From Crossaster papposus (taxonomy: Eukaryota > Echinodermata > Asteroidea > Velatida > Solasteridae), in NCBI GenBank assembly GCA_037893245.1, contig JBAIAA010000902.1, positions 210,993 to 274,992 on the forward strand: a stretch of DNA of 64,000 nucleotides, written 5' to 3'. The position numbers were made by a program, and so were the translations under genes. This document shows, one piece after another, positions 19,751 to 63,843 of the stretch. The notes under the pieces are model-generated. The model did not search any database, was not told the origin of the DNA, and saw nothing but the letters and a program-made list of their open reading frames with translations. How positions within the stretch are numbered: the first letter of the stretch is position 1; each line of letters opens with the position of its first letter.

Positions 19751-19843
19751 CATCCGGCGCGAACTGGTTAATAGTCTTACACTGAATTACCTCTAGGTAT
19801 CTGGTCCTGAGCACTCCTACAGCTCCAGAAGCAAGAAACGTTT

Positions 19844-20221
19844 TCACACCCAAACCGACCTGTTACAAATAACATCATGAATAAGAAACACACAACTGAT
19901 ATAATCATTATAAATATTGCGAGTTAAAGGCAGGATACACCATTTGCAGATATCAAAAATATTTACTACCGTATTATTAAGAAATATCTTACTTATTTGA
20001 AAGTAAATAATGATTTTAGGCGTCCAGCAAAATGATTGCCCTAGATATTCTGATATTATTCCGAAAAATTGAATTTTATAAAACAAAACTCGCGATCGCC
20101 AGACGGCGAGCGCGAAAAAACAATAACAACATAAGAATAACTGCTCGACGCCGGTTGAAAACAAACGCTGTTTTTCGTGCTTTTCTAGGCATCCATGATA
20201 GTAAAACTTCGAACAGGTCAT
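19844..20221 (-). other. 125-codon ORF in island 1, coding status unproven
   Basis: ATG at 20221-20219 (A at -3), stop at 19844. The predicted protein is hydrophobic and rich in Phe, Cys, Ile and Leu, starts MTCSKFYYHGC and matches no family I recognise. It overlaps on the opposite strand a basic 65-codon ORF (20032-20229) and in another minus frame a 64-codon ORF (20076-20270). The GC-rich hairpin lies inside it. It is unchanged in island 2, but the whole island is nearly unchanged, so this is no evidence of selection. It may well be a chance ORF. Confidence 0.12.
20090..20115. other. GC-rich stem-loop in island 1
   Basis: Arms 20090-20100 (TCGCGATCGCC) and 20105-20115 (GGCGAGCGCGA) pair over 11 positions with a single A/G mismatch, around the loop AGAC (20101-20104). 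It stands out in an AT-rich setting and is followed on the plus strand by a run of six A. The same 26 bp lie at 40921-40946. It could be an RNA hairpin, a cruciform or the core of a small mobile element; I cannot assign a function. Confidence 0.7.
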
Positions 20222-20366
20222 TTAAATGATATTTACTATAAAATACAACCCCCCAAATCCACCCATTCATGATAATTCAAGCAATTACAAATGGTGTACC
20301 CAACCTTTAAATAAAACGTGTACTTAATTTTCTCTGCATTACATATTTAAATCATTTTCTGTTACC

Positions 20367-20750
20367 TCAAATGCCAGTCAAAAACAATGCAAAGAAGCAC
20401 TTGACTGCATACAAATTGGCAAGTAACAATTCACCTCCCGTCTTAGACGCATCTTTATTGAGCTGCCCAAAATATAAACCTGTAGAGAAGACAAAAGAAA
20501 TTACAGTTTTAGAGGTGGGAGAAAAATCCCAGAAGAATATTCTGGGGAAAATCGACAAAATCAGGTAGGGACTGAAAAACCTGCTTGCTGTGTGCCGGTG
20601 GCTGACAGATATTGCCGGTCTTGCTTGTGACATGTTTACCGTCATCCATTTTGAATCCCGAAAAAAATGTGCAAGGTACTTGTACACCCACCCTCCGATG
20701 CGAATTGAAACCTTGATTAATGGAGTTAAAACTTGAAATAAGTCCAACAT
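20367..20750 (-). other. 127-codon ORF in island 1, coding status unproven
   Basis: ATG at 20750-20748, stop at 20367. The predicted product starts MLDLFQVLTPL, is rich in Phe, Ser and Leu, and resembles no family I know. A second minus-strand frame contains an ATG with a favourable context (A at -3, G at +4) at 20649-20647, giving 46 codons to a stop at 20509. A good 3' splice site (pyrimidine tract then CTACAG) ends at 20480, and a weak donor (CAG then GTTTTT) lies at 20581/20580. The region could therefore be a small exon pair instead of this ORF. Both readings are speculative; no homology is visible. Confidence 0.12.
20528..20546. other. Perfect 7-bp inverted repeat in island 1
   Basis: CCCAGAA (20528-20534) and TTCTGGG (20540-20546) are exact inverted copies around GAATA; the core AGAATATTCT is itself palindromic and fits a minimal two-site heat-shock-element pattern (GAA, two bases, TTC). 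A motif this short can occur by chance. Confidence 0.4.
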
Positions 20751-20962
20751 CCGCCACTAATACGTTTCGGAAAACTTTCGACGACTCTTAAAAAATACAT
20801 ATAAGTCATCGTATTGTACTAAAAATACACCTATTACAAGTTGTACTTTTGTGTTTTGTGAAATGATTCATAGGACACGACACAGCTGCAACCTGAGATG
20901 CATTGAAGTTACGACGAGTTTCATGAAAATAGATTAAGGCAACAAATGTAAAGTATTTTTTT

Positions 20963-21085
20963 ACCCTAACGCCCTAGGCATTTATTTGGGGTACAGTACA
21001 CAATACTACCCAGTTCTTATAGGCTAGTGTAATAAGAGTACTGCATACAAGTAGTATTTTGTAGTATTGGGTAAGGTGATAGGGT
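20963..21085. other. Weak 123-bp inverted-repeat element, MITE-like, island 1
   Basis: The left end (20963, ACCCTAACGCCCTA) and the inverse of the right end (21085, ACCCTATCACCTTA) agree at 11 of 14 positions. Inside, AATACTACCC is mirrored by an inverted AATACTAC on the right arm. No target-site duplication is obvious. It could be a decayed miniature element or chance. Confidence 0.25.
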
Positions 21086-60700: not shown

Positions 60701-62027
60701 CGTCCTTCCGTCCATCCTTCCAGTCCGTCCTTCCGTCCATCCTTCCAGTCCGTCCTTCCGTCCATCCTTCCAGTCCGTCCTTCCGTCCATCCTTCCAGTC
60801 CGTCCTTCCGTCCATCCTTCCAGTCCGTCCTTCCGTCCATCCTTCCAGTCCGTCCTTCCGTCCATCCTTCCAGTCCGTCCTTCCGTCCATCCTTCCAGTC
60901 CGTCCTTCCGTCCATCCTTCCAGTCCGTCCTTCCGTCCATCCTTCCAGTCCGTCCTTCCGTCCATCCTTCCAGTCCGTCCTTCCGTCCATCCTTCCAGTC
61001 CGTCCTTCCGTCCATCCTTCCAGTCCGTCCTTCCGTCCATCCTTCCAGTCCGTCCTTCCGTCCATCCTTCCAGTCCGTCCTTCCGTCCATCCTTCCAGTC
61101 CGTCCATCCTTCCAGTCCGTCCTTCCGTCCATCCTTCCAGTCCGTCCTTCCGTCCATCCTTCCAGTCCGTCCTTCCGTCCATCCTTCCAGTCCGTCCTTC
61201 CGTCCATCCTTCCAGTCCGTCCTTCCGTCCATCCTTCCAGTCCGTCCTTCCGTCCATCCTTCCAGTCCGTCCTTCCGTCCATCCTTCCAGTCCGTCCTTC
61301 CGTCCATCCTTCCAGTCCGTCCTTCCGTCCATCCTTCCAGTCCGTCCTTCCGTCCATCCTTCCAGTCCGTCCTTCCGTCCATCCTTCCAGTCCGTCCTTC
61401 CGTCCATCCTTCCAGTCCGTCCTTCCGTCCATCCTTCCAGTCCGTCCTTCCGTCCATCCTTCCAGTCCGTCCTTCCGTCCATCCTTCCAGTCCGTCCTTC
61501 CGTCCATCCTTCCAGTCCGTCCATCCTTCCAGTCCGTCCTTCCGTCCATCCTTCCAGTCCGTCCTTCCGTCCATCCTTCCAGTCCGTCCTTCCGTCCATC
61601 CTTCCAGTCCGTCCTTCCGTCCATCCTTCCAGTCCGTCCTTCCGTCCATCCTTCCAGTCCGTCCTTCCGTCCATCCTTCCAGTCCGTCCTTCCGTCCATC
61701 CTTCCAGTCCGTCCATCCTTCCAGTCCGTCCTTCCGTCCATCCTTCCAGTCCGTCCTTCCGTCCATCCTTCCAGTCCGTCCTTCCGTCCATCCTTCCAGT
61801 CCGTCCTTCCGTCCATCCTTCCAGTCCGTCCTTCCGTCCATCCTTCCAGTCCATCCTTCCAGTCCGTCCTTCCTTCCAGTCCGTCCTTCCGTCCATCCTT
61901 CCAGTCCGTCCTTCCGTCCATCCTTCCAGTCCGTCCTTCCGTCCATCCTTCCAGTCCGTCCTTCCGTCCATCCTTCCAGTCCGTCCGTCCTTCCAGTCCG
62001 TCCGTCCTTCCATCCTTCCGTCCGTCC

Positions 62028-62201
62028 TTCCAGTCCGTCCATCCTTCCAGTCCGTCCATCCTTCCAGTCCGTCCATCCTTCCAGTCCGTCCATCCTTCCA
62101 GTCCGTCCATCCTTCCAGTCCGTCCATCCTTCCAGTCCGTCCATCCTTCCAGTCCGTCCATCCTTCCAGTCCGTCCATCCTTCCAGTCCGTCCATCCATC
62201 C
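62028..62201. repeat. 17-bp satellite, 10 copies, unit 3
   Basis: AGTCC every 17 bp from 62032 to 62185 (ten starts), the same copy number as in unit 2. Confidence 0.92.
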
Positions 62202-62355
62202 ATCCAGTCCGTCCATCCATCCATCCATCCAGTCCGTCCATCCATCCATCCAGTCCGTCCATCCATCCATCCAGTCCGTCCATCCATCCATCCAGTCCGT
62301 CCATCCATCCATCCAGTCCGTCCATCCATCCATCCAGTCCGTCCATCCATCCATC
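62202..62355. repeat. 21-bp satellite, 7 copies, unit 3
   Basis: AGTCC at 62206, 62231, 62252, 62273, 62294, 62315 and 62336. The first copy is 25 bp because of one extra ATCC. Confidence 0.92.
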
Positions 62356-62598
62356 CAGCCCATCCAGCCCATCCAGCCCATCCAGCCCATCCAGCCCATC
62401 CAGCCCATCCAGCCCATCCAGCCCATCCAGCCCATCCAGCCCATCCAGCCCATCCAGCCCATCCAGCCCATCCAGCCCATCCAGCCCATCCAGCCCATCC
62501 AGCCCATCCAGCCCATCCAGCCCATCCAGCCCATCCAGCCCATCCAGCCCATCCAGCCCATCCAGCCCATCCAGCCCATCCAGCCCATCCAGCCCATC
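62356..62598. repeat. 9-bp satellite CCATCCAGC, 27 copies, unit 3
   Basis: CAGC every 9 bp from 62356 to 62590; copy numbers in the three units are 23, 26 and 27. Confidence 0.95.
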
Positions 62599-63685
62599 CA
62601 GTCCATCCAGTCCATCCAGTCCATCCAGTCCATCCAGTCCATCCAGTCCATCCAGTCCATCCAGTCCATCCAGTCCATCCAGTCCATCCAGTCCATCCAG
62701 TCCATCCAGTCCATCCAGTCCATCCAGTCCATCCAGTCCATCCATCCAGTCCATCCAGTCCATCCAGTCCATCCAGTCCATCCAGTCCATCCAGTCCATC
62801 CAGTCCATCCAGTCCATCCAGTCCATCCAGTCCATCCAGTCCATCCAGTCCATCCAGTCCATCCAGTCCATCCAGTCCATCCAGTCCATCCAGTCCATCC
62901 AGTCCATCCAGTCCATCCAGTCCATCCAGTCCATCCAGTCCATCCAGTCCATCCAGTCCATCCAGTCCATCCAGTCCATCCAGTCCATCCAGTCCATCCA
63001 GTCCATCCAGTCCATCCAGTCCATCCAGTCCATCCAGTCCATCCAGTCCATCCAGTCCATCCAGTCCATCCAGTCCATCCAGTCCATCCAGTCCATCCAG
63101 TCCATCCATCCAGTCCATCCATCCAGTCCATCCATCCAGTCCATCCATCCAGTCCATCCAGTCCATCCATCCAGTCCATCCAGTCCAGTCCATCCAGTCC
63201 ATCCAGTCCATCCAGTCCATCCAGTCCATCCAGTCCATCCAGTCCATCCAGTCCATCCAGTCCATCCAGTCCATCCAGTCCATCCAGTCCATCCAGTCCA
63301 TCCAGTCCATCCAGTCCATCCAGTCCATCCAGTCCATCCAGTCCATCCAGTCCATCCAGTCCATCCAGTCCATCCAGTCCATCCAGTCCATCCAGTCCAT
63401 CCAGTCCATCCAGTCCATCCAGTCCATCCAGTCCATCCAGTCCATCCAGTCCATCCAGTCCATCCAGTCCATCCAGTCCATCCAGTCCATCCAGTCCATC
63501 CAGTCCATCCAGTCCATCCAGTCCATCCAGTCCATCCAGTCCATCCAGTCCATCCAGTCCATCCAGTCCATCCAGTCCATCCAGTCCATCCAGTCCATCC
63601 AGTCCATCCAGTCCATCCAGTCCATCCAGTCCATCCAGTCCATCCAGTCCATCCAGTCCATCCAGTCCATCCAGTCCATCCAGTC
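62599..63685. repeat. 9-bp satellite CCATCCAGT, unit 3
   Basis: About 1.09 kb, with few 13-bp variants (near 62742 and 63105-63170) and one AGTCCAGTCC junction near 63184, followed by 500 bp of uniform repeats up to the hexamers. Confidence 0.95.
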
Positions 63686-63843
63686 GTTAGCGTTAGCGTT
63701 AGCGTTAGCGTTAGCGTTAGCGTTAGCGTTAGCGTTAGCGTTAGCGTTAGCGTTAGCGTTAGCGTTAGCGTTAGCGTTAGCGTTAGCGTTAGCGTTAGCG
63801 TTAGCGTTAGCGTTAGCGTTAGCGTTAGAGTTAGCGTTAGAGT
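63686..63843. repeat. (GTTAGC)n hexamer array, left flank of island 3
   Basis: About 26 hexamers; the last three read GTTAGA, GTTAGC, GTTAGA, the arrangement seen at unit 1 but not at unit 2. Confidence 0.93.

Follow-up and report, generated by a model that had tools for sequence, protein, structure and literature searches.

A composite tandem unit of 21–23 kb with a nearly invariant 1.96-kb island in Crossaster papposus: probable recent amplification of the whole unit

A stretch of 64,000 nucleotides from the Crossaster papposus assembly GCA_037893245.1 (contig JBAIAA010000902.1, positions 210,993 to 274,992 of the forward strand; hereafter the window) contains large tandem units. In each of them, a non-repetitive sequence of 1.96 kb, here called the island, is embedded in long arrays of short repeats. 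The islands are almost identical, whereas the arrays between them differ in length and arrangement. This raises the question of whether the island is homogenised or selected more tightly than the arrays, or whether the whole unit was amplified recently and only the arrays have changed since; the original prediction offered both. The locus is probably a composite macrosatellite, the whole unit of which was recently amplified, with slippage and block duplication altering the arrays at a faster pace.

A BLASTN search of the window with island 1 (expectation value (E) up to 1e-5) located three islands in one orientation, with starts at 19751, 40582 and 63844, exactly where they had been predicted. 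Islands 1 and 2 are identical at 1,955 of 1,956 positions and align without gaps, in agreement with the predicted single-base difference over about 1,956 bases. The sole difference is found at island position 48, with T in island 1 and C in island 2. The partial island 3 matches island 1 at 156 of 157 positions and island 2 at all 157. The start-to-start periods amount to 20,831 and 23,262 bp, both of which are complete in the window. The island has a G+C content of 36% and a CpG observed/expected ratio of 0.72. No tandem repeat was detected within island 1 by Tandem Repeats Finder (TRF), and the island is the sole non-repetitive stretch of each unit.

The unit comprises approximately 2 kb of ordinary sequence and approximately 19–21 kb of short repeats, and is arranged head to tail. 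In both complete units, the island is followed by a GTTAGM array, a pyrimidine-rich mix, an 8-bp array, a 25-bp array, a 21-bp array, two 9-bp arrays and a GTTAGC array. Positions 1–19750, which were omitted from the coordinates of the original prediction, contain most of one further unit, and its visible portion to the left of island 1 has the identical part order. The TRF scores of the repeat arrays, which reach 55,971, far exceed chance expectation. The combination of the island with hexamer, 8-, 9-, 21- and 25-bp arrays in constant order is that of a composite satellite. The three co-oriented islands and two complete periods represent the head-to-tail large unit of a macrosatellite, and the high similarity between units expected of this class is seen both in the islands and in the collinear flank and array stretches described below. 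The predicted macrosatellite with a large mixed unit is thus supported by the three islands, their periods and the constant part order. Furthermore, the constancy of the sub-array order across the two complete units and the visible portion of the third supports recent amplification of the unit as a whole.

The divergence of the island was compared with that of collinear stretches between neighbouring units, which are designated here by their 25-bp arrays A, B and C (Table 1). These stretches were chosen by the analyst, and the comparisons left out of the pool are listed separately below. The right flank shows one substitution in 1,124 positions and five gaps, the left flank of B and C three in 1,657 and eight gaps, and the start of arrays B and C three in 2,162 and five gaps. 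The array block 37300–38399 differs from 58417–59516 by three substitutions in 1,100 positions, with no gap. Pooled, the collinear flank and array stretches differ at 10 of 6,043 positions, as compared to 1 of 1,956 for the island (Fisher test, p = 0.31). That the islands are held tighter than the arrays is not established, and the comparison has low power because there is only one island substitution. Recent copying suffices as the cause of the near-identity of the islands.

Several observations weigh against this interpretation. The substitution rate of the island is the lowest of all compared segments (0.5 per kb versus 0.9–2.8 per kb), and if the island changed as fast as the ungapped array block, the Poisson chance of at most one change in 1,956 bp would be 0.031. 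Among the comparisons outside the pool, the end of arrays B and C, forced through 22 gaps, shows 12 substitutions in 2,588 positions (p = 0.0098 versus the island), and the end of arrays A and B, forced through 21 gaps, shows 21 in 1,478 (p < 0.0001). The left flanks of A and B and of A and C, likewise set aside, differ at 4 of 1,438 and 4 of 1,480 positions, respectively (p = 0.17 each), and an alternative alignment of the right flank adds two substitutions where the 8-bp array borders it. When the ungapped block is replaced by the forced end of B and C, the pool changes to 19 of 7,531 (p = 0.099). Once all of them are listed, the array and flank comparisons that were set aside count slightly against the pooled test. 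In addition, only two complete islands are visible in the window. At face value, the same direction is indicated by best-match alignments of 400-bp windows between the arrays: 46 substitutions in 15,580 positions were counted from B to C (p = 0.058 versus the island) and 74 in 17,961 from C to B (p = 0.006), with a pooled excess over the island of p = 0.015.

The best-match figures can be judged by a control, in which the same search was performed inside one array with the window itself excluded. This yielded 44 substitutions in 11,555 positions for array A, 60 in 15,568 for B and 49 in 17,959 for C. The divergence between B and C (120 of 33,541; 3.6 per kb) is close to that within arrays (153 of 45,082; 3.4 per kb; p = 0.67), and the control for B and C alone gives 109 of 33,527. 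Because the arrays diverge between each other as they do internally, the island cannot fairly be judged by the best-match figures. Their excess is mostly paralogy, reflecting reshuffling rather than unit age. Best-match comparisons involving array A are higher, with 57–80 substitutions (4.2–6.1 per kb).

The same figures bear on a functional island, such as a non-coding RNA gene, a promoter, a replication origin or a chromatin boundary, which selection, or gene conversion focused on the island, would preserve amid drifting arrays. Such a function would fit the low substitution rate, the absence of any indel in 1,956 bp, the excess of the forced (p = 0.0098) and best-match (p = 0.015) array comparisons over the island, and the position of the island as the only non-repetitive stretch of each unit. 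Against it, the collinear difference is not significant, the best-match excess equals the within-array divergence, and the searches for protein domains, RNA families and tRNA described below gave no match at their thresholds; a functional island is thus considered unlikely. For the first two of these reasons, the tighter homogenisation or selection of the island put forward in the original prediction is not demanded by the data, although some constraint on the island may exist, given the low power of a single substitution. Its other proposal, that the whole unit was amplified recently and the arrays changed afterwards, agrees with the collinear divergence and the constant sub-array order.

The later change is visible in the 25-bp arrays, which were cut into tokens at every CCAG or TCAG. 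Shared blocks were counted if they were exact, at least 500 bp long and contained at least eight tokens other than the standard unit. As predicted, the arrays between the islands differ, with 25-bp arrays approximately 2.4 kb apart in length and unlike in internal arrangement. Arrays B and C have five exact blocks in common, some in altered order, and their first 40 tokens (994 bp) are exactly alike. Two blocks of 706 and 510 bp lie within the last 1.4 kb of B, but 2.2–3.5 kb before the end of C, and those of 1,314 and 643 bp are placed in different order. Array A has one exact block of this kind (505 bp) in common with C and none with B. Within the arrays, duplicated block pairs number two in A, four in B and six in C. 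The longest exact match within an array measures 1,860 bp and lies in B, where its two copies are offset by 1,126 bp, so that a 1,126-bp block is tandemly repeated there; in C, the longest measures 1,451 bp. The repeat in B spans 29788–32773 and points to a very recent local exchange or an assembly effect. Many gaps between aligned stretches are repeat-sized, for example 4, 5, 8, 13, 17, 21 and 25 bp. Together with the block duplications, such gaps are the expected traces of slippage and unequal exchange.

An assembly artefact, in which one or two real units were falsely duplicated, for example by setting allelic copies head to tail, would likewise account for near-identical islands. The three co-oriented islands are accompanied by arrays of differing length and internal block structure, and array A shares almost no long exact block with the other two, both of which argue against false duplication and render it improbable.

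For the preferred recent amplification of the whole unit, we infer the following course. The ancestral unit would have consisted of one non-repetitive 1.96-kb stretch within a chain of short-repeat arrays. Its head-to-tail multiplication would most likely have proceeded by unequal sister-chromatid crossing-over or replication-based amplification. With only one difference between the complete islands, the amplification would be recent, or homogenisation may be continuing. The long pyrimidine-rich arrays would keep changing through slippage and through unequal exchange, the latter involving both pieces of repeat size and blocks of approximately 0.5–1.9 kb. Point mutation would be the only source of change in the island, which lacks tandem repeats and is most likely a passenger.

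The gene content of the unit was searched at the protein and RNA level. The Pfam scan took 10 of the 43 listed open reading frames (ORFs); of the remaining 33, some have at most 55 amino acids inside the island, and the others extend into the arrays or are located there. Very long ORFs in the arrays, such as 21670–40434, are attributed to array units that lack stop codons in all frames. Among the 10 island ORFs, no Pfam match above the curated cut-off was obtained, and three weak matches have E-values of 0.017, 0.22 and 0.3; a protein-coding island was rejected on this basis. No Rfam family was matched at gathering score on either strand of the 64-kb window, including two complete periods, and no transfer RNA (tRNA) was found in the window by ARAGORN. 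A structured RNA was also rejected, with four Rfam matches at a lax threshold all far below the gathering scores. Three of these, at 19562–19788, lie over or start in the hexamer array, and the fourth is located at 20519–20575 (16 bits, E 1.8). A known gene in each unit, as in gene-bearing arrays, was thus not found by Pfam in the ORFs scanned, by Rfam or by ARAGORN. An unknown, spliced or non-coding gene in the unit is possible.

These results also concern the spacers of known multigene families (ribosomal DNA, 5S, small nuclear RNA or histone genes), loci which are generally known to combine a long period with mixed structure. The absence of Rfam families at gathering score and of Pfam matches above cut-off in the tested ORFs speaks against such a spacer, which is very improbable. 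For RNA families contained in Rfam, it is largely refuted. It has also been considered that the island could play an active part in the array, for instance as a non-coding transcription unit or as a replication origin that drives the amplification of its 21–23 kb unit, with homogenisation centred there and fading into the arrays. This is regarded as quite improbable.

Some weaker features of the island were recorded. An inverted repeat at 19924–19946 and 20288–20310 (23 nucleotides, 20 matches) has TTAA at its outer ends, and 11 of 200 shuffles score as high. It may bound a transposon-like piece of 387 bp (19924–20310). The hairpin at 20950–21110 is likewise weak (z = −1.58), and 14 of 200 shuffles fold equally well; neither feature was used in the interpretation. 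A scan for sigma-70 promoters and terminators gave values near the shuffled mean, with a model that is ill-suited to eukaryotic DNA. Exact short patterns had no match in viral contigs, one array pattern had none in prokaryote genome contigs, and BLASTN of the island gave no match in phage and plasmid collections. Because the collections consist of viruses, prokaryotes, phages and plasmids, these searches could hardly have revealed a eukaryotic relative. The lack of matches agrees with the eukaryotic source suggested by the kind of sequence, but is weak evidence, as the viral and prokaryote contigs were searched with short exact patterns only.

Table 1. Coordinates of islands and repeat arrays in the window.
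Feature	Position	Strand	Remarks
8-bp TCCGTCCT array	1–6262	+	at least 6.26 kb; cut by window start
Array A, 25-bp unit	6248–17970	+	11.7 kb; belongs to the unit preceding island 1
21-bp, then 9-bp CCAGCCCAT, then 9-bp CCATCCAGT arrays	17971–19561	+	also inside 38773–40428 and 61987–63684
GTTAGC hexamer array	19562–19750	+	precedes island 1; such arrays also precede island 2 (from 40429) and island 3 (from 63685)
Island 1	19751–21706	+	1,956 bp; 36% G+C; no tandem repeat by TRF
GTTAGM (GTTAGC/GTTAGA) array	21707–21936	+	right of island 1; also right of island 2, from 42538
Mixed pyrimidine-rich repeats	21937–22871	+	about 0.9 kb; 8-bp CTTCCGTC array at end
Array B, 25-bp unit TCCGTCCTTCCGTCCATCCTTCCAG and variants	22872–38772	+	15.9 kb; internal block duplications
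Island 2	40582–42537	+	one substitution versus island 1; no indel
Array C, 25-bp unit	43676–61986	+	18.3 kb; start resembles array B, later arrangement differs
Island 3	63844–64000	+	cut by window end; 157/157 identical to island 2

Two further observations concern the sub-arrays. The 8-bp TCCGTCCT sub-array varies strongly in size, from at least 6.26 kb in the leftmost unit to longest exact runs of 185 bp after island 1 and 161 bp in the next unit; with mismatches, TRF extends the short arrays to 504 and 842 bp. Hexamers of the type TTAGNG, mostly TTAGCG and TTAGAG, occur on both sides of the island on the same strand (19562–19750 and 21707–21936 for island 1), a motif which resembles the common animal telomere repeat. 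Because both arrays share motif and strand, the island may have been inserted into one hexamer array, or may have seeded it.

Among known systems, the TSPY array of the human Y chromosome has a unit of 20.4 kb, and its copy number is thought to vary via unequal sister-chromatid exchange (PMC3924835). It resembles the present locus in its head-to-tail units of approximately 20 kb, but each TSPY unit carries a protein-coding gene, whereas none was found here by the searches above and the unit consists mostly of short repeats. Units of this size are uncommon, with TSPY as a precedent. Reviews place macrosatellite units at no more than a few kb and allow a composite structure for satellites with large monomers (PMC8122249 and PMC12692304). 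D4Z4, DXZ4 and NBL2 are also built of large tandem units; these measure 1.4–3.3 kb, whereas the present unit is far larger and mostly made of short arrays. The sheep Y centromere, with 47 composite units of 2.51 kb (PMC11436988), is likewise a tandem unit mixing different kinds of sequence. It differs in that spacers and two transposable elements make up its unit, whereas in the present unit no transposable element has been established. A link to the eliminated DNA of hagfish found no support, as four motif words are absent from the main text of PMC10461843. No description of the present repeat was found in the literature, within one open library and the terms used. The unit exceeds the usual macrosatellite size and lacks a recognised gene, yet is of the same kind.

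The locus thus combines two modes of change in one tandem unit, with an island that changes slowly, seemingly by point mutation alone, and arrays that change rapidly in length and order. Conservation of the island beyond what recency explains would indicate a driver of amplification, and is not shown by the present data. In such a region, which is otherwise difficult to read, the islands would provide markers for the order and age of the units and for exchange.

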